From: Halobacterium wangiae
Lineage (GTDB): Archaea > Halobacteriota > Halobacteria > Halobacteriales > Halobacteriaceae
Reading direction: 5' to 3'
NCBI RefSeq assembly: GCF_021249345.1
Contig: NZ_CP089588.1
Coordinates: forward strand, 2,232,001-2,296,000
Length of the DNA stretch: 64,000 nt
In this document: piece after piece, positions 12,622 through 19,491 of the stretch
Layout: each line of letters opens with the position of its first letter
Position numbering within the stretch: position 1 is the stretch's first letter
Program-made: the position numbers and the translations under genes
The notes under the pieces: model-generated
Told to the model about the DNA's origin: nothing
Seen by the model: only the letters and a program-made list of their open reading frames with translations
Databases searched by the model: none

Positions 12622-13440
12622 ATGGAGAAGGTCGCGCTCATCACTGGTTGTTCGTCGGGTATCGGCGACGCGACGGCGCGCTCGCTGCTCGACGAGGAGT
12701 GGACGGTCGTCGCCACCGCACGCGACACCGACGACGTCGCGGCGCTCGCGGAAGCCGGCTGTGACACGGCCGAACTCGACGTGACGAAGCCGGCGCAGTG
12801 TGAGAACGTCGTCGAGGACATCGTCGACCGCCACGGCCGACTTGACTGCCTCGTCAACAACGCGGGGTACGCACAGCTGGGGCCGCTGGAGGACGTACCG
12901 ACGCGGGCGCTCCACCGCCAGTTCGACGTGAACGTCTACGGGCCACACCGCCTCGTCCGGGCGGCGCTGCCACACATGCGGAACCGCGGTGACGGGACCA
13001 TCGTGAACGTCTCCAGCGTCGCCGGCCGCGTCGCCACGCCCGGGATGGGTGCGTACAACGGCTCGAAGTTCGCGCTCGAGGGGATGAGCGACGCGCTCCG
13101 CGGTGAGGTCTCGCAGTTCGGCGTCGACGTCGCACTCGTCGAACCCGGGCCCGTGGAGACGTCGTTCACCGAGCGCGCGGAGCGCCAGGTCGACGACCTC
13201 GATCCGAGTGGCGTCTACGAGACCATCTATCGGTTCTTCGAGGACGCGAGCGCCGTCAACGGCGTCGGCGCCGTTCCACCCGAGCGCGTCGCCGAGGTCA
13301 TCACCGAGGCGGCGGTCAGCACGGACCCGAAGGCCCGCTACCCGGTCGCGCGCGCCGGCAAGTACGGCGTCGCCGCACGCTTCCTCCCGAGTAGCTGGCT
13401 CGACTCCGTCTACGGCCTCGCGCTGAAGTACCTCCACTGA
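12622..13440 (+). CDS. SDR-family NAD(P)-dependent oxidoreductase
   Basis: 272 residues, classical short-chain dehydrogenase. The cofactor motif TGCSSGIG (residues 8-15), the NNAG motif (about 75-78), the catalytic Ser of NVSSVAG and the YNGSK pair (Y-x-x-x-K) are all present, followed by EPGPVETSF. An Arg after the second strand (TARDTDD) hints at NADP(H). The substrate cannot be read from sequence. A GTTAACT box at about 12592-12598 lies 27 nt before the ATG, pointing to a leaderless transcript. It is a single-gene unit between the hairpin element and a small lipoprotein. Confidence 0.9.
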   Translation: MEKVALITGCSSGIGDATARSLLDEEWTVVATARDTDDVAALAEAGCDTAELDVTKPAQCENVVEDIVDRHGRLDCLVNNAGYAQLGPLEDVPTRALHRQFDVNVYGPHRLVRAALPHMRNRGDGTIVNVSSVAGRVATPGMGAYNGSKFALEGMSDALRGEVSQFGVDVALVEPGPVETSFTERAERQVDDLDPSGVYETIYRFFEDASAVNGVGAVPPERVAEVITEAAVSTDPKARYPVARAGKYGVAARFLPSSWLDSVYGLALKYLH

Positions 13441-13544
13441 CCGCGCGGACCGCGCTCCGCTCGTGGGCAGCGTGTTGGTAACTGGCTACCGAACCGTACA
13501 TCCCTGCAATAACCGTTAATGAACCGGATTCCGTCCGACTGAGC

Positions 13545-13769
13545 ATGCAACGAAGACGACTGCTCGCCGCGACTGGAACCGTCGTGACCGCGCTGATCGC
13601 GGGCTGTGGGTCGCCCGACGCCGAGGGCGAAGACGGTGGTGGCGGCGGTGCCGGCACCGGCGGTACGGGTGGCGGGACTGGTGGCACCGGTGGAACCGGT
13701 GGCGGCACCGGAGGCACGGGCGGTGGCGACCGCGCCGAACCGGACCAGTTCGGGCCACGGGACGCCTGA
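13545..13769 (+). CDS. Small Gly-rich secreted lipoprotein
   Basis: 74 residues. MQRRRLLAATG followed by TALIAGC gives a twin-arginine-like signal and a lipobox with Cys21 as the lipidation site. The mature part is almost only a Gly/Thr linker (repeats of GGTGG) ending in DRAEPDQFGPRDA. Such linkers normally join a lipid anchor to a domain, but here the frame stops with no domain. It may be a real anchored spacer peptide or the front of a gene that lost its 3' part. A CGTTAATG box at about 13513-13520 sits 27 nt before the ATG. It converges with the Dps gene. Confidence 0.6.
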   Translation: MQRRRLLAATGTVVTALIAGCGSPDAEGEDGGGGGAGTGGTGGGTGGTGGTGGGTGGTGGGDRAEPDQFGPRDA

Positions 13770-13868
13770 GAAGCGAGCACGTCCGCACTCGCGTTCGTCT
13801 GTTCTCGACGACGTTCGAAAAAATTCGGCAACGGCGGACAGCGCCGCGTTCTCCTCGACGGAGCGGTC

Positions 13869-13892
13869 TCCACTGAGTCGCCCCTCAGTGGA
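13869..13892 (-). terminator. Hairpin downstream of the dps gene
   Basis: A perfect 9-bp stem (TCCACTGAG / CTCAGTGGA) with a six-base loop lies 18 nt past the dps stop. About 45 nt further on in the same direction is a run of six T (13822-13817). Archaeal termination depends mainly on T runs, so the hairpin may instead stabilise the mRNA 3' end. Confidence 0.4.
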
Positions 13893-13909
13893 GTCTCGGG
13901 TCTGGAGGT

Positions 13910-15139
13910 CTACAGTCGCTGCTGCGTCGGCGGCTCCTGGAACGCACTACTCGCGGATTCGAAGCTGGATGCGCCGCCGTAGACGCCCGACGACTGACTC
14001 ATCGGCTGCTGGGACGTCTGCTGTGGTGGGAACTGCTGCTGTGGCGGGAGCTGGCTCTGTTGCTGGGGCGTCTGCTGTGGTGGGAGCTGGCTCTGCTGCT
14101 GCGACCCGAAGGGCGGCTGCTGCTGGGACGGAACCGGGCGCTGCTGCTGTGGCGGGGCCTGGCTCTGCTGCTGGGGTCCCTGCTGCTGGGGCGTCTGCTG
14201 CTGGGGCGTCTGCTGTGGTGGGAGCTGGCTCTGCTGCTGTGACTGGAGCGGCCGCTGCTGGGGCGGTTGCTGGGGCGGGCGCTGTCGCTGCTGGGACTGG
14301 AACGAGCCCTGCTGCTGACCGACTCCCCTCGAGCCACCCTGGAGCGAGCCCTGGGAGGCCTCGATCGGCTGGGCGACGTCCTGCGGCATGCTCTGGGGTG
14401 CGCTGATCGGTGCCGAAATGTCCTGTGGCACACCCTGCGCTGGCGCCATCGCCTGGGGAGGACCCGTCTGGATCTCTATCTGCGAGGTAGGGCTCCCGGA
14501 GCCGGAGACCGACCGGCTGGCGGCCTCCTCGCCGCCGAGACTCTGCCCAGTGCTGCCCTTCGCCGAGGTTCCCTGGGCCTGGCCCATCGTCGCCGGCACC
14601 TGGCTCCGGACCTCCATCTGGAGGTGGGATTCGAGCACGTAGAGCTGCTTGTCCACCTCGCGGGAGATCTCGGTGAGCAGGTCGGCGGTGTCCTCGTCAC
14701 CGAGCCCGGCCGCCTGATCGATCGCCTCCCGGAGGAAGCTCGCGTGGCGGCCGACGTGGTCGGCCAGCCACTCGATGTACTCGACTTCGTCGACCGCTTC
14801 GACCGGCGGCTCCGGGATGCGGCTGGTGCTGGCCGCGATGCGGGTCGTCCCAACTGCCTGGCCCCCGAGGGCGGTGGCGCGTTCGGCGAGCAGGTCGACG
14901 TGCTCGGAGAGCTCTTCCGCGATCTCGTCGAACAGCAGGTGGAGCTGGAAGAAGTCCGGGCCCTTGACGTTCCAGTGGGCGAACTTGGCCTGGGACCGCA
15001 GGTCGGTGGTGTCGGCGAGTACCTGATTCAGCGTCTGGATCACCGGAACACGGCTCTCCTCCGGGAGATTGACGGCTGTACTGTAGAGGTTCGTCTGCGG
15101 GTTGCTCGTACTCGACGCTCGTTGTTGTTTCTGTGACAT
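13910..15139 (-). CDS. dps: Dps ferritin-like protein with long Gln/Pro-rich C-terminal tail
   Basis: 409 residues. Residues about 15-185 are a Dps domain (iron-oxidising, DNA-protecting 12-mer in the family). The inter-subunit ferroxidase ligands fit the E. coli spacing exactly: H55 in AHWNVKG, H67, D71, D82 and E86. Dps usually ends here; this protein adds about 220 residues. Residues 275-379 are about half glutamine with Pro and Ser, built from near-repeats such as QSQLPPQQTPQQQ, and no Asp or Glu occurs from 261 to 393, remarkable for a haloarchaeal protein. A Ser/Gly/Tyr/Phe end follows. ATG 15139 is chosen because a GGAGGT ribosome site lies nine bases upstream. The tail resembles prion-like low-complexity regions; its role is unknown. 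Confidence 0.9.
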   Translation of the reverse strand: MSQKQQRASSTSNPQTNLYSTAVNLPEESRVPVIQTLNQVLADTTDLRSQAKFAHWNVKGPDFFQLHLLFDEIAEELSEHVDLLAERATALGGQAVGTTRIAASTSRIPEPPVEAVDEVEYIEWLADHVGRHASFLREAIDQAAGLGDEDTADLLTEISREVDKQLYVLESHLQMEVRSQVPATMGQAQGTSAKGSTGQSLGGEEAASRSVSGSGSPTSQIEIQTGPPQAMAPAQGVPQDISAPISAPQSMPQDVAQPIEASQGSLQGGSRGVGQQQGSFQSQQRQRPPQQPPQQRPLQSQQQSQLPPQQTPQQQTPQQQGPQQQSQAPPQQQRPVPSQQQPPFGSQQQSQLPPQQTPQQQSQLPPQQQFPPQQTSQQPMSQSSGVYGGASSFESASSAFQEPPTQQRL

Positions 15140-15156
15140 GTGGAGTAGACCTCCAC
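15140..15156 (-). promoter_or_regulatory. Hairpin covering the dps ribosome-binding site
   Basis: On the dps strand the bases directly before the ATG read GTGGAG-GTCTA-CTCCAC, a perfect 6-bp stem with a five-base loop. The Shine-Dalgarno element GGAGGT (15154-15149) falls largely in the 5' arm and would be masked when the stem forms. This suggests control of translation, for example by ion strength, temperature or a bound factor. Inference from sequence only. Confidence 0.45.
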
Positions 15157-15352
15157 CGTTCACTGACGGCGATTGCATGGAAAACTGTACTCCGCATGTT
15201 GTTCCCAACTACTCTCCACTCCGGGACTTCGCCTCGGTATCAGATACGAATTCTTACACGACTGGGGAATGCACGTCGATGGCGTGCCGTGAGCGAAGCG
15301 TACCTCGGGGGCTCTTCGGCGTTTTCCGACGCTCGTCCCAGGAGACACCGCA

Positions 15353-15361
15353 TACTTTATC
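15353..15361 (+). promoter_or_regulatory. TATA box of the GH99-like lipoprotein gene
   Basis: TACTTTATC lies 27 nt upstream of the ATG at 15386, consistent with a leaderless transcript. It sits in the 246-bp divergent region shared with dps; no other clear operator is seen there. Confidence 0.5.
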
Positions 15362-15385
15362 TGTCGTTGCTATCACTCGGGTAGC

Positions 15386-17242
15386 ATGTCTGACGACCGC
15401 TCTGCCTCGCGTCGGCGGTTCCTGGCTGGCGTTCTCGGAACCAGCGCACTCGCTGGGTGTAACAGCTCGCCGTCCGAGACGACGCCCTCGGAAACGACGA
15501 CCGACCCCGAACCCACGACCGACCCCGAACCCACGACCGACGGGACCACGACGAACTCGGAACCGTCGGTCGAGCGCCAGCTGGCCGTCTCCCTCGAGAC
15601 AGTCGACTCGGAGGGGACTACGCACGTCGAAGTCACGGGCCAGGGGTCCCATCCCGACGGCATCGACAGAGTCGACGTCTCGTTCGGAACCGGTGAGACG
15701 GTCGTACGGGACCGCGAGGGACCGACGGAGACCGAGATCGAGGTGAGACGCCCCGTCCCCGGTGGGCAGCGCTACGGCGTCGAGGTGTCGCTCGTTCCGA
15801 CGGACGGGGAGGCCATCTCCCGACGCGGGTTGAGCGAGTACGTGACCCGACCCCGGATGCGGGAGGAGTCGGGTTCGACGGTCGTCGCGAACTACTACCC
15901 GTGGTACGGCCCGGACCGCCACCGGGCCTTCGTCGACGAACCCGTCGTCTCAGACTACGACTCGCGCGACGAAGCGGTCGTCGAACAGCACGTCGACTGG
16001 GCGACGGAGTACGGCGTCGACGCGTTCTGCGCGAGCTGGTGGGGCCAGGGTAGCTGGGAGGACGAGACGCTGCAGAACCACTACCTCCCGAACGAGGCGA
16101 CCGACGACCTGGAGTTCTGCATCCTCTACGAGTCCCTCGAGATGCTCGGGGAGGACCTCCCGCGGTCCTTCGACGACGACCAGACCAGGCAACAGTTCGT
16201 CGACGACGTGGCGTACCTCTCGGAGCACTACTTCGGCGAGGACAACTACCTCCGCGTGGACGGGAGGCCAGTGCTCTACTTCTACGCCGCGGACCAGCTC
16301 CAGGGCGACGTCGAAGCCGCGCTCGCGGCCGCCGAGGAGGCTGCCGGCGAGGAGCTGTTCGTCGTCCTCGAGATCGTCGACTGGCGGTTCCCCACGACGC
16401 ACGACCGGAAGCTGATGCGTGCCGCCGACGGCGTCACCGCCTACGAGATGTTCCGCTCGATACCGGACATCGACGAGAACTTCGCCGAGCGGATGGCGTC
16501 GTTCTACCCCGAGTGGCTGCTCGCTGCCAAGGACACCGACTGCGTGTTCATGCCGGTGATGATGCCGGGGTTCAGCAACCGGATGATCAACGACGACTAC
16601 GACCGACCGGAACTCACGCGCAGCGAGGAGCGGACGCGCCGCGTCTGCGAGTACACCCAGGCGTACCTCGACCCGACGGTCGACCTGTCGTTCGTCACGT
16701 CGTGGAACGAGTGGCACGAACACACGCAGGTCGAACCGTCCGAGGAGCACGGGACGAGCGACCTCGAGATCATCCGCGACACGATATCGGAAGACGAGTT
16801 CGACCACTGGATCGACGACACGGTCGCCCTCACTCTCTCCTTCGAGGAGACGGTCAAAGAGTCCGTGATAACGGGCGACGACATCCCGCCCGCAGACGAC
16901 CGCGACCTCGCGTTCGCCCTCGAGACGATCACCTTCGAAAAAGACCACGAAGCGGTCGTCGAACCCTACAACATCGGTCCCGAGGGACCGGAACCACACT
17001 ACAGCGGCGGCGTCTACGCGCAGGCTTCCAGTGAGGCCAAGTCGTGGCGGTGGCTCGGCGGCGAGGACGGGTCGGTGACGTTCGTGTTCGACGAGCAGAT
17101 ACTCGAGGCGGAGACAGTCGAACTACGGGGCTTCCCGGTCACTGGCGGCCTCTCCGGGACGCTCTCGCTAGGTGGACTGGAACTGGGCTCCGTCGACTTC
17201 GGCGAACGGCGGAGTCAGTCCTACTGGTTCGAGTTGTTGTAG
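15386..17242 (+). CDS. Tat-exported lipoprotein with GH99/WbsX-like glycoside hydrolase domain
   Basis: 618 residues. The N-terminus has a twin-arginine signal (SRRRFLAGVLG) and lipobox LAGC with Cys25, then a Thr/Glu/Pro linker to about residue 60 and a beta-rich segment to about 165. From NYYPWYG to about 470 it looks like the GH99-like/WbsX family (alpha-mannan-type endohydrolases and O-antigen enzymes), with HVDWATEYGVDAFCASWWG, RPVLYFYA and SWNEWHEHTQVEPS carrying the likely acidic catalytic pair. A beta-sandwich tail may bind sugar. It would act on glycans at the outer cell surface. Transcribed divergently from dps. The enzyme specificity is unknown. Confidence 0.8.
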   Translation: MSDDRSASRRRFLAGVLGTSALAGCNSSPSETTPSETTTDPEPTTDPEPTTDGTTTNSEPSVERQLAVSLETVDSEGTTHVEVTGQGSHPDGIDRVDVSFGTGETVVRDREGPTETEIEVRRPVPGGQRYGVEVSLVPTDGEAISRRGLSEYVTRPRMREESGSTVVANYYPWYGPDRHRAFVDEPVVSDYDSRDEAVVEQHVDWATEYGVDAFCASWWGQGSWEDETLQNHYLPNEATDDLEFCILYESLEMLGEDLPRSFDDDQTRQQFVDDVAYLSEHYFGEDNYLRVDGRPVLYFYAADQLQGDVEAALAAAEEAAGEELFVVLEIVDWRFPTTHDRKLMRAADGVTAYEMFRSIPDIDENFAERMASFYPEWLLAAKDTDCVFMPVMMPGFSNRMINDDYDRPELTRSEERTRRVCEYTQAYLDPTVDLSFVTSWNEWHEHTQVEPSEEHGTSDLEIIRDTISEDEFDHWIDDTVALTLSFEETVKESVITGDDIPPADDRDLAFALETITFEKDHEAVVEPYNIGPEGPEPHYSGGVYAQASSEAKSWRWLGGEDGSVTFVFDEQILEAETVELRGFPVTGGLSGTLSLGGLELGSVDFGERRSQSYWFELL

Positions 17243-17279
17243 GGCGGAAGTCCACTGCTCGCTGCCCTCCCTGTCCTAC

Positions 17280-18311
17280 TCAGTCCAGGCAAGCAGCGAC
17301 CACGCGTAGCGGCCGCTCACCGCGCACCTCCTCGGCGAGCAGCGGGACGCGTTTCACGTCGGGGCCGCGGAACAGCTCCTGGGCCCGGGCGAGCGCCCCC
17401 TGCTGGACCTCCCAGCGGCGTGCACAGAACGCGCAGTCCTCGTGGTTCGGGGCGACGAACGCGTCCGCCGGGACGTCCGCGACGTCCGCCAGCGGCTCCA
17501 TCACGCGGTTCACGACGACGGTGCCGACCGGGACGCCGTACTCGTCGAGGCGGGCGACGAGGCGCTCGGACTCCATGACGCTCATCTCCTCGGGCACCAG
17601 CACCACGCGGAAGTCCGTGCGCGCGGGGTCGGTCAACACCGCACGGAGGCGCTCGACGCGCTCCTTGACTGCGTCCAGGTCGCCGAAGCCCTGCTCGGCG
17701 TCCTCGTCGCCCTGGCCGAACATCCCCTTCAGGCCGTCCATCATGCCGCCGAGTCGCTCCCGGAGCTGCATCATCCGGCCGACCATCGAGTCCAGGACCT
17801 CGGGGAGTTCCAGCAGGCGGAGCGTGTGGCCAGTGGGTGCGGTGTCGACGACGACGCGGTCGAAGCGCTCGTCGTCCATGTACTCTAGCAGCAGTTGCAT
17901 CGCGGCGGCCTCGTCGGCACCCGGCATCATCGCCGCGTCGTCGGCGCTATCGCCCGCCGTCCCGCCGAGCAACGCGTCCATCCCGCCCGCGAAGCCGCCG
18001 TCCTGCCCGAACATCCCGGCCTGCGAGAGCGCGTCGTCCGGGTCGATCTCGACCGCCCACAGCGGCCGGTCGTCGAACACCTGTGCGGGTCGAGCCGGCA
18101 CGTCGACGCCGAGCGTGTCCGACAGCGAGTGTGCGGGGTCCGTGGAGACGACGAGCGTCGCGGTGCCCTCGTTCGCGCTGGCGAGCGCCGTCGCCGCCGC
18201 CATCGTCGTCTTGCCGACGCCGCCCTTCCCGCCGTACAGCACGTACTCCGCGGTTCCCGTCGTCACGCCGGGGTCGAGCGAGTCGACTGCCTCGACCTCG
18301 AGTTCGTCCAT
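17280..18311 (-). CDS. ArsA/GET3-family ATPase
   Basis: 343 residues starting MDELEVEAVDSLD. It has the deviant Walker A motif GGKGGVGKTT (residues 27-36), the switch STDPAHSLSD and the DTAPTGHTLRLLELP motif. A Met-rich helical insert (about residues 105-225) corresponds to the client-binding region of Get3, and CAFC provides the cysteine pair that joins Get3 dimers through zinc. Get3-like proteins guide tail-anchored membrane proteins; ArsA drives arsenite export. No arsenic genes are nearby, so a Get3-like role is favoured. The start is an ATG at the domain boundary; upstream translation is non-acidic noise. Confidence 0.9.
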   Translation of the reverse strand: MDELEVEAVDSLDPGVTTGTAEYVLYGGKGGVGKTTMAAATALASANEGTATLVVSTDPAHSLSDTLGVDVPARPAQVFDDRPLWAVEIDPDDALSQAGMFGQDGGFAGGMDALLGGTAGDSADDAAMMPGADEAAAMQLLLEYMDDERFDRVVVDTAPTGHTLRLLELPEVLDSMVGRMMQLRERLGGMMDGLKGMFGQGDEDAEQGFGDLDAVKERVERLRAVLTDPARTDFRVVLVPEEMSVMESERLVARLDEYGVPVGTVVVNRVMEPLADVADVPADAFVAPNHEDCAFCARRWEVQQGALARAQELFRGPDVKRVPLLAEEVRGERPLRVVAACLD

Positions 18312-18390
18312 GCTCCGGGATGAGCGACCCAGCGGGGTGAATCCGTCGGTCGCGGGACTCCGCCCGGTCCACGTCGACGGCGCGCCGCGT

Positions 18391-19491
18391 TCAGCCGAAG
18401 TAGGCCGCCAGTCGGTCGGCGGCCTCATCGACGCGCGGGGAGACGAGCGCGAACCGGAGCCAGTCGTCGTGTGTGGTTCCGAAACCGGAGCCGGGCATCC
18501 CCGCGACGCCAGCTTCGTCGATGAGTTCGAACGTGTTCTCCAGGCTCCCCGGGAAGTCCGGGAACCGCGCGAGCACGTAGAACGCGCCGTCGGGTTCCGT
18601 GTACTCCGCGCCCGCGTCGTCGAGAGCGTCGGTGAACGTCGCCACGCGCTCGCGCAGCAACTCGCGGCTCTCCCGGTAGTAGTCGGGGTCGGTCTCCCGG
18701 AGGGCGTGCAGCACTGCGGCCTGTGGGGGGCGACTCGACGTCACGTTCGTCAGCATGTGCCGGGACTTCATCGGCTCCGTGTGTGCCTCCTCGGCGATCG
18801 TGTAGCCGACGCGGAACCCCGTGATGGCGAGGGACTTCGAGAAGGAGTTCGTGACGATGCGGTGTTCGGAGTCGAACTCGAGGGCGCTCGTGAACGTCCC
18901 GGAGAAGTCGAAGTGGTCGTACACCTCGTCGCTGACCAGGATGGCGTCGTTCTCCTCGGCGATGGCGACGAGTTCCGCCATCGTGGCCTCGTCGTAGACG
19001 GCGCCCGTCGGGTTGTTGGGCGTGTTGACGATGATGCAGGCGGTGTCCTCGCTCGCGACGTCGCGGACCGCCGCGGGGTCGAGGCTGCCGTCGGCCTCGG
19101 TCTCGACGAACCGCTGGGTGCCGCCGAGCATCGTCGTCTTCCCCGGATAGTAGGGGTAGACCGGGTCGGTCATCACCACTTCGTCGCCGGCGCCGCGCTC
19201 CAGTGCGCGCCCCATCGCGAGGTAGTTCGCCTCGCCGCCGCCGTTCGTGACGACCACCTGCTCGACCGGCACCTGCCTGCGCGCCGCGATCTCCTCGCGG
19301 AGTTCCCGCAGGCCGACGCTGGGCGGGTACTGGAACGCCATCCCTCCCTGGTCGGCGTACTGGTGGAGGCCCTCGGCGACCGCTGGCGGCGACCCCCAGT
19401 CCGGGTTGCCCGAGACCATGTCGATGACGTCACCGTCGGCGTGGGTCGCGTACTCCATCACGCGGAAGAACAGCGGCTCCTCGTACTCCAT
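18391..19491 (-). CDS. Class I/II pyridoxal-phosphate aminotransferase
   Basis: 366 residues starting MEYEEPLFFRVMEYA. Fold type I aminotransferase signatures: GGGEANYLAMG for phosphate binding, NTPNNPTG, DEVYDHF with the PLP Asp, and NSFSKSLAITGFRVGY with the PLP lysine. A C-terminal Arg in DDWLRFALV would bind the substrate carboxylate. Aspartate- or aromatic-type activity is likely, but the amino acid cannot be assigned. It lies 79 bp upstream of the ArsA/Get3 gene in the same direction and is divergent from the CinA-type gene. Confidence 0.9.
   Translation of the reverse strand: MEYEEPLFFRVMEYATHADGDVIDMVSGNPDWGSPPAVAEGLHQYADQGGMAFQYPPSVGLRELREEIAARRQVPVEQVVVTNGGGEANYLAMGRALERGAGDEVVMTDPVYPYYPGKTTMLGGTQRFVETEADGSLDPAAVRDVASEDTACIIVNTPNNPTGAVYDEATMAELVAIAEENDAILVSDEVYDHFDFSGTFTSALEFDSEHRIVTNSFSKSLAITGFRVGYTIAEEAHTEPMKSRHMLTNVTSSRPPQAAVLHALRETDPDYYRESRELLRERVATFTDALDDAGAEYTEPDGAFYVLARFPDFPGSLENTFELIDEAGVAGMPGSGFGTTHDDWLRFALVSPRVDEAADRLAAYFG

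Follow-up and report, generated by a model that had tools for sequence, protein, structure and literature searches.

The gene analysed here encodes, as judged from its sequence and predicted fold, a Dps of the bacterial (E. coli) type whose ferroxidase site is intact and which runs on into a Gln/Pro-rich C-terminal tail of 231 residues. Comparison of the tail sequences of two sister species shows that its composition persists while its sequence turns over completely. The gene was inserted between a short-chain dehydrogenase (SDR) gene and an ArsA-type ATPase gene in the common ancestor of the window species and its sister (genome G008), and its product is the sole remaining Dps of the E. coli or DpsA type in the genome, since DpsA is missing from its conserved locus. 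The window is the whole stretch of DNA that was analysed, 64,000 nucleotides from Halobacterium wangiae, and the features of the locus are compiled in Table 1.

Table 1. Features of the dps locus and its borders, in window coordinates.
Feature	Position	Strand	Basis or remarks
SDR, left border of insertion site	12622..13440	+	
dps CDS, 409 aa	13910..15139	-	ATG at 15139, stop 13910-13912; Pfam Ferritin 2.3e-25; NCBIfam NF006975
C-terminal end, residues 377-409	13913..14011	-	GGA-x(5)-ASS-x2-Q motif common to G008
Gln/Pro-rich repeat segment, residues 277-376	14012..14311	-	47% Q, 23% P, no D/E
Proximal tail, residues 179-276	14312..14605	-	semi-conserved with sister species, alignment
N-terminus and Dps core, residues 1-178	14606..15139	-	AlphaFold2, Foldseek; four-helix bundle residues 27-180
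Ferroxidase-centre ligands H55, H67, D71, D82, E86	14882..14977	-	invariant alignment columns
Ribosome-binding site GGAGG	15150..15154	-	10 nt before ATG; sequence
ArsA/GET3-type ATPase, right border of insertion site	17280..18428	-	

Coding sequence, core and tail

The GC content by codon position in the Gln-rich part of dps is 0.78/0.47/0.85, which is the pattern of coding DNA, and the GGAGG site is also found upstream of the gene in the two nearest relatives, G008 and Halosimplex. The initial annotation had allowed that the tail might be an assembly or frameshift artefact; this is ruled out by the same gene in the sister genome, at the same place and with a Q/P-rich tail of 275 residues, together with conserved synteny and the coding signature. 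Further upstream, at about 15175-15210, lies an AGTAC.GTTTTCC-like block that is kept in the window and in G008 and partly in Halosimplex, and may be a promoter or regulator site. Adjoining the Dps stop codon is a tiny gene (13545-13769, plus strand) whose product, a lipoprotein of some 74 aa, consists of Gly/Thr repeats (GGTGGTGG...).

The E. coli-type Dps profile NF006975 matches residues 9-174 with 175.8 bits against a cut-off of 114, whereas the haloarchaeal DpsA profile NF041388, which has a cut-off of 170, gives only 74.9 bits (77.4 bits when the genome was scanned), so that an ordinary haloarchaeal DpsA with an extension is ruled out. The solved relatives closest by sequence are the Dps proteins of Brucella, Agrobacterium and E. 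coli. The AlphaFold2 model of the core contains helices at residues 27-57, 63-90, 99-105, 118-145 and 149-180, with pLDDT 85-98 in most blocks, and thus has the Dps four-helix fold with a short helix between B and C; Foldseek places it closest to the crystal structures of Dps from Agrobacterium, Brucella and E. coli, at 34-39% identity and with a TM score of 0.92 on the target. The assignment of H55, H67, D71, D82 and E86 as ferroxidase ligands at E. coli spacing, made in the initial annotation, holds up well: all five are invariant in an alignment of the window Dps with 17 relatives (18 proteins), and their spacing in a phmmer alignment is that of E. coli Dps. By analogy with other Dps proteins, the core would assemble into a 12-mer and oxidise and store iron with peroxide. 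Its segment is moderately acidic (20% D+E).

The tail is composed of three parts, of which the proximal one shares the stretches RSQVPATM..., SQIEIQ, QAMAP, PQDVAQPI and QGSLQGGS with the sister species, and the middle one is built of PPQQ and QSQLPPQQ repeats. AlphaFold2 predicts it to be disordered, with pLDDT of about 41-59 and no secondary structure over residues 191-400 (about 45-59 in the Gln/Pro-rich segment). The whole tail contains 6 aromatic residues, 8 K+R and 8 D+E, and at the N-terminus of the protein K4 and R7 are the sole basic residues. Recounting of residues 275-379, described earlier as about 49% Gln, gives 48.6% Gln and 22.9% Pro, and from 261 to 393 Asp and Glu are indeed absent. 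This acid-free run of 133 residues is real, but its rarity as the key oddity of the tail is weakened by a run of 128 residues in a rhomboid-type membrane protein of the same window, so that it is Gln and not the lack of acid that is striking. Judged from the window ORFs and a scan for the CAG-repeat pattern, the tail is rare in this respect, with up to 40 Q+N per 80 residues, a count that does not exceed 15 in any of the 45 other credible window ORFs. The proposed resemblance to prion-like domains stands only in part. A prion-like domain is expected to have at least 30 Q+N in 80 residues, and the tail exceeds this; amyloid-forming prion domains have few prolines and few charges, and here the charges are few but proline reaches 22.9% in residues 275-379. 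The high proline content and the scarcity of aromatics argue against amyloid formation, and likewise against strong phase separation driven by aromatic residues.

Distribution of the tailed Dps and replacement of DpsA

Among 13 Halobacterium genomes, only the window genome (G000) and its sister G008 carry the gene. The G008 protein, encoded at the same locus, is 87% identical over the residue 1-178 segment. The next relative is the Halosimplex Dps, which is 70-71% identical and has an acid-poor tail of 55 residues; by eye, its end (HGGAPA..AAS..LQ) is related to the ends of the long tails, although MAFFT left the two unaligned. In genome scans, bacterial-type Dps turned up in 15 of 391 genomes taken from the class, and in 18 of 28, 2 of 170 and 12 of 146 genomes of families f6, f4 and f2, respectively.

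The C-tails of 34 haloarchaeal proteins range from 9 to 275 residues with a median of 43.5. Gln makes up 23.5% of them, Gly 15.4%, Ser 11.8%, Pro 11.6% and Asp+Glu 5.4%, while in the cores of the same proteins Gln stands at 5.1% and Asp+Glu at 17.5%. When the two long tails are left out the values are 21.3% Gln and 6.1% Asp+Glu, and for the C-termini of the other window ORFs they are 1.9% Gln and 18.9% Asp+Glu. Gln is likewise frequent in the family just ahead of the core (20%), where basic residues outnumber acidic ones (14% K+R and 5% D+E in the last 15 residues). Among the sampled bacterial relatives, tails measure 0-5 residues. The maximum-likelihood tree groups 33 of the 34 haloarchaeal sequences in a single clade (support 93/85), and the bacterial relatives in it are a mixture of Planctomycetota, Cyanobacteria and Acidobacteriota. 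The outlier (L042, genome G203) has a tail that is short, acidic and devoid of Gln; the Gln-rich tail is thus a mark of the clade and more than a mere reflection of the haloarchaeal cell. The clade rules out a one-off oddity: the window Dps is not singular but stands at the long end of a clade that has at least 33 members, with mostly Gln/Gly/Ser-rich, acid-poor tails. The statement that such a tail is undescribed for a haloarchaeal Dps agrees with the literature search, in which none was found among the papers searched (subscription papers and preprints being mostly outside its scope). The clade of Gln-rich, near-neutral tails and the replacement of DpsA in a Halobacterium lineage thus seem to be undescribed, and the core is of a known kind.

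Several features of clade members and related genomes are recorded here. In public records one member, encoded on a Halobaculum halophilum plasmid, is plainly named "Dps". The haloarchaeon of the outlier sequence carries three consecutive DpsA-like genes in addition to its separate bacterial-type Dps. Several f6 tails (L036, L038, L048, L049, L050, L053) end in an RRY motif, as RRYGG... or RRYQQG/RRYEQG, behind spacers of varying length, and many N-termini in this family are strongly basic (L040, L056-L059); these ends could be Arg/Tyr contact sites.

The SDR-ArsA gap measures 12-15 bp in five congeners without the tailed Dps, and in G000 and G008 the Dps gene lies between the two border genes. 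The two genomes are sisters and are therefore counted as one event. The junction (window 13440-17280), empty in these five congeners and occupied by the tailed Dps in two, is an insertion-prone spot: in G011 it holds a different insert of 3.1 kb (L098:3538-6634), which looks like a permease and another enzyme, and in the window the interval also holds two lipoprotein-like genes. A protein with a signal peptide (twin-arginine, lipobox-like) and a GH99/WbsX-like domain is encoded between Dps and ArsA in the window (15386-17242, plus strand) and is absent from the sister's locus.

DpsA scores above the NF041388 cut-off in 11 of the 13 Halobacterium genomes; G000 and G008 have no match above it. 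Elsewhere in the genus the order argG-helicase-DpsA-threonine aldolase-aminopeptidase is conserved, and in G000 and G008 all of these neighbours are kept except DpsA, of which tblastn detected no remnant at this locus. Most carriers of the bacterial-type Dps elsewhere have kept DpsA as well (31 of 34), and in G376 no DpsA match passed 1e-20; the replacement is therefore special to the window lineage and perhaps G376. The window genome does have other ferritins, since it also encodes a Sulfolobus-type Arch_DPS protein (280.6 bits against a cut-off of 250) and a third ferritin-like protein.

Evolution of the tail and its possible role

The Dps cores of the two sister species are 89% identical, and their Gln-rich segments share not a single 7-mer although the Gln/Pro contents are 47/23% in the window and 42/20% in G008. 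Between these species dN/dS is 0.25 in the core vs 0.42 in the proximal tail; values for the Gln-rich part depend on an unreliable alignment. Identical peptide repeats within the window tail differ at third codon positions by 0.114, as compared to 0.357 expected from the protein's own codon usage, and such near-identical DNA behind identical peptides points to recent DNA duplications. Tandem arrays in the tail have periods of 12-57 bp, 67 of its 69 Gln codons are CAG and 2 are CAA, and the repeats of the sister tail differ from those of the window. Growth of the tail by repeat duplication is well supported by these sequence features.

A second Gln-rich protein is encoded in the same genome (L136:1681-2772, minus strand; G000:C1 about 764,680-765,771). 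It comprises 364 aa with about 39% Q, QQHQGG repeats and basic ends, and has no Pfam or NCBIfam match. In congeners (L137, L138, L139, L140) the slot beside a DUF6149 gene and an FAD/NAD oxidoreductase is likewise filled by a Gln-rich protein of quite different sequence, and some of these proteins have a conserved C-terminal LAD.LARR.GLTSQQLAQ motif. As in the Dps tail, composition seems to outlast sequence here.

E. coli Dps relies on lysine-rich tails both for DNA binding and for self-association. Multimolar KCl would largely screen electrostatic tails of this kind, and the reading that we favour, tentatively and at somewhat less than an even chance, is that the tail of the window Dps acts as a composition-encoded, salt-tolerant layer for interaction and spacing on an iron-oxidising cage, through which cages under stress would associate loosely among themselves and with the nucleoid. 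On the 12-mer, twelve disordered and uncharged tails would form a corona, in which Gln, Pro, Ser and Gly with sparse Arg and aromatic residues could make weak hydrogen-bond and hydrophobic contacts; the layer would be salt-tolerant because salt screens charge-based tails and not contacts of this type. The tails may thus touch other tails, cages or nucleoid components and take the place of the charge-based tails of bacterial Dps, their length being only loosely set by repeat duplication and loss. Condensates formed from tailed cages are possible by analogy: disordered Dps tails are described as binding and condensing DNA (PMC13319912), and E. coli Dps forms condensates (PMC10906006). Against this salt-tolerant layer stand the clade members with tails of 9-20 residues, which show that the family can do without a long C-tail, the relaxation of the tail relative to the core (dN/dS about 0.4), and the composition itself, as 23% Pro, with no more than 6 aromatics and 8 Arg/Lys among 231 residues, makes for weak stickers by known grammars.

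The strongest rival is neutral: an ancestral Gln-rich tail, short and Halosimplex-like (about 55 aa), may have grown by CAG/CCN duplication within a single Halobacterium lineage and been tolerated, without function, outside the cage. The near-uniform CAG codons, the tandem arrays, the near-identity of the window repeats as DNA together with the different repeats in the sister, and the relaxed dN/dS are all what such growth would leave behind. It does not readily account for 33 tails that stay acid-poor and Gln/Gly/Ser-rich over a large divergence, for the purifying selection that is still acting to some degree on the proximal tail, for the persistence of the end motif, or for two long tails that are in frame and nearly free of acid although all of their Gln-rich 7-mers differ, and as the whole explanation we consider it somewhat unlikely. 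Since the window repeats are recent DNA duplications, part of the tail length may be neutral, and neutral repeat expansion probably accounts for part of its extreme length.

A role opposite to association, in which the uncharged hydrophilic tail forms a solubility or hydration brush that spaces crowded, iron-filled cages in the cytoplasm with its high KCl and prevents their aggregation and condensation, would suit a predicted disordered, Pro-rich chain of low hydrophobicity with few aromatics or charges on a core that is itself moderately acidic, the tail then not being needed for charge. We regard it as decidedly unlikely, because the genus has a canonical DpsA for which an acidic core with next to no C-tail is enough, haloarchaeal proteins are usually soluble through their acidic surfaces, and Gln-rich chains tend toward self-association rather than repulsion. 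Least probable, and in our view quite improbable, is a classical DNA-binding tail, with Arg/Lys at the N-terminus and along the tail contacting DNA and the Gln/Pro segment serving as a linker. The strongly basic N-termini (MTQRQSRRRRQFRRSERR...) of Halorussus-like relatives (f6/g17; genus name inferred), the RRYGG ends of several C-tails and the excess of K+R over D+E before the core across the family would fit it; the window protein, with its two basic residues at the N-terminus and equal numbers of K+R and D+E in the tail, fits it poorly, and electrostatic binding is weak in multimolar salt.

The salt-tolerant layer can be extended to the whole clade: haloarchaea that acquired a bacterial Dps would have re-invented its tails as neutral and Gln-rich, as charge-based condensation fails in molar KCl, and the resulting salt-tolerant cage condensates would have been good enough to replace DpsA in one Halobacterium lineage. 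This extension is speculative and fairly unlikely as it stands.

Significance and comparison with known systems

The tailed Dps bears on a largely open question, the multivalent association of disordered chains when multimolar salt screens electrostatics. The clade offers a natural test series of one cage with tails of 9 to 275 residues and a kept composition, and the genus, which is that of H. salinarum, offers sister species with and without the classical DpsA. The case is also one in which a haloarchaeal protein of well-known structure has given way to a bacterial relative, and the tail is an example of selection (or tolerance) for composition and not for sequence.

Dps proteins of E. coli and other bacteria (NF006975; PDB 1dps, 1o9r, 3ge4) share with the window Dps the core sequence, the fold, the spacing of the ferroxidase site and disordered termini outside the cage. 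The DNA-binding tails of the bacterial proteins are, however, short to medium in length and cationic (Lys/Arg), whereas the window tail is long, Gln/Pro-rich and near charge-neutral, in an archaeon living at high salt. H. salinarum DpsA (NF041388; PDB 1moj) comes from the same genus and superfamily and presumably does the same job, but belongs to another Dps subfamily, has no C-tail and is missing in the Halobacterium genomes with the tailed Dps; the DpsA of genome G007 agrees with PDB 1moj at all of the 176 residues compared. A long flexible tail is also known from Deinococcus Dps, where it is reported to bind and bridge DNA and to change its conformation with ionic strength (PMC13319912; PMC9103930). 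That tail is N-terminal, described as positively charged and not Gln-rich, with about 46 residues removed in the mutant, and in these respects is unlike the window tail. A study of Streptomyces Dps (PMC3613396) describes tail lengths that vary within the genus, gene duplication and lateral acquisition, all of which recall the tailed haloarchaeal Dps; the Streptomyces tails are much shorter, and the study makes no mention of a Gln-rich composition. For the effect of salt, a functional analogy only is provided by the prion-like domain of NFAT5, a disordered segment whose self-association grows with ionic strength and which phase-separates as salt rises (PMC10602047), although NFAT5 is an animal transcription factor, unrelated to Dps and not a cage.
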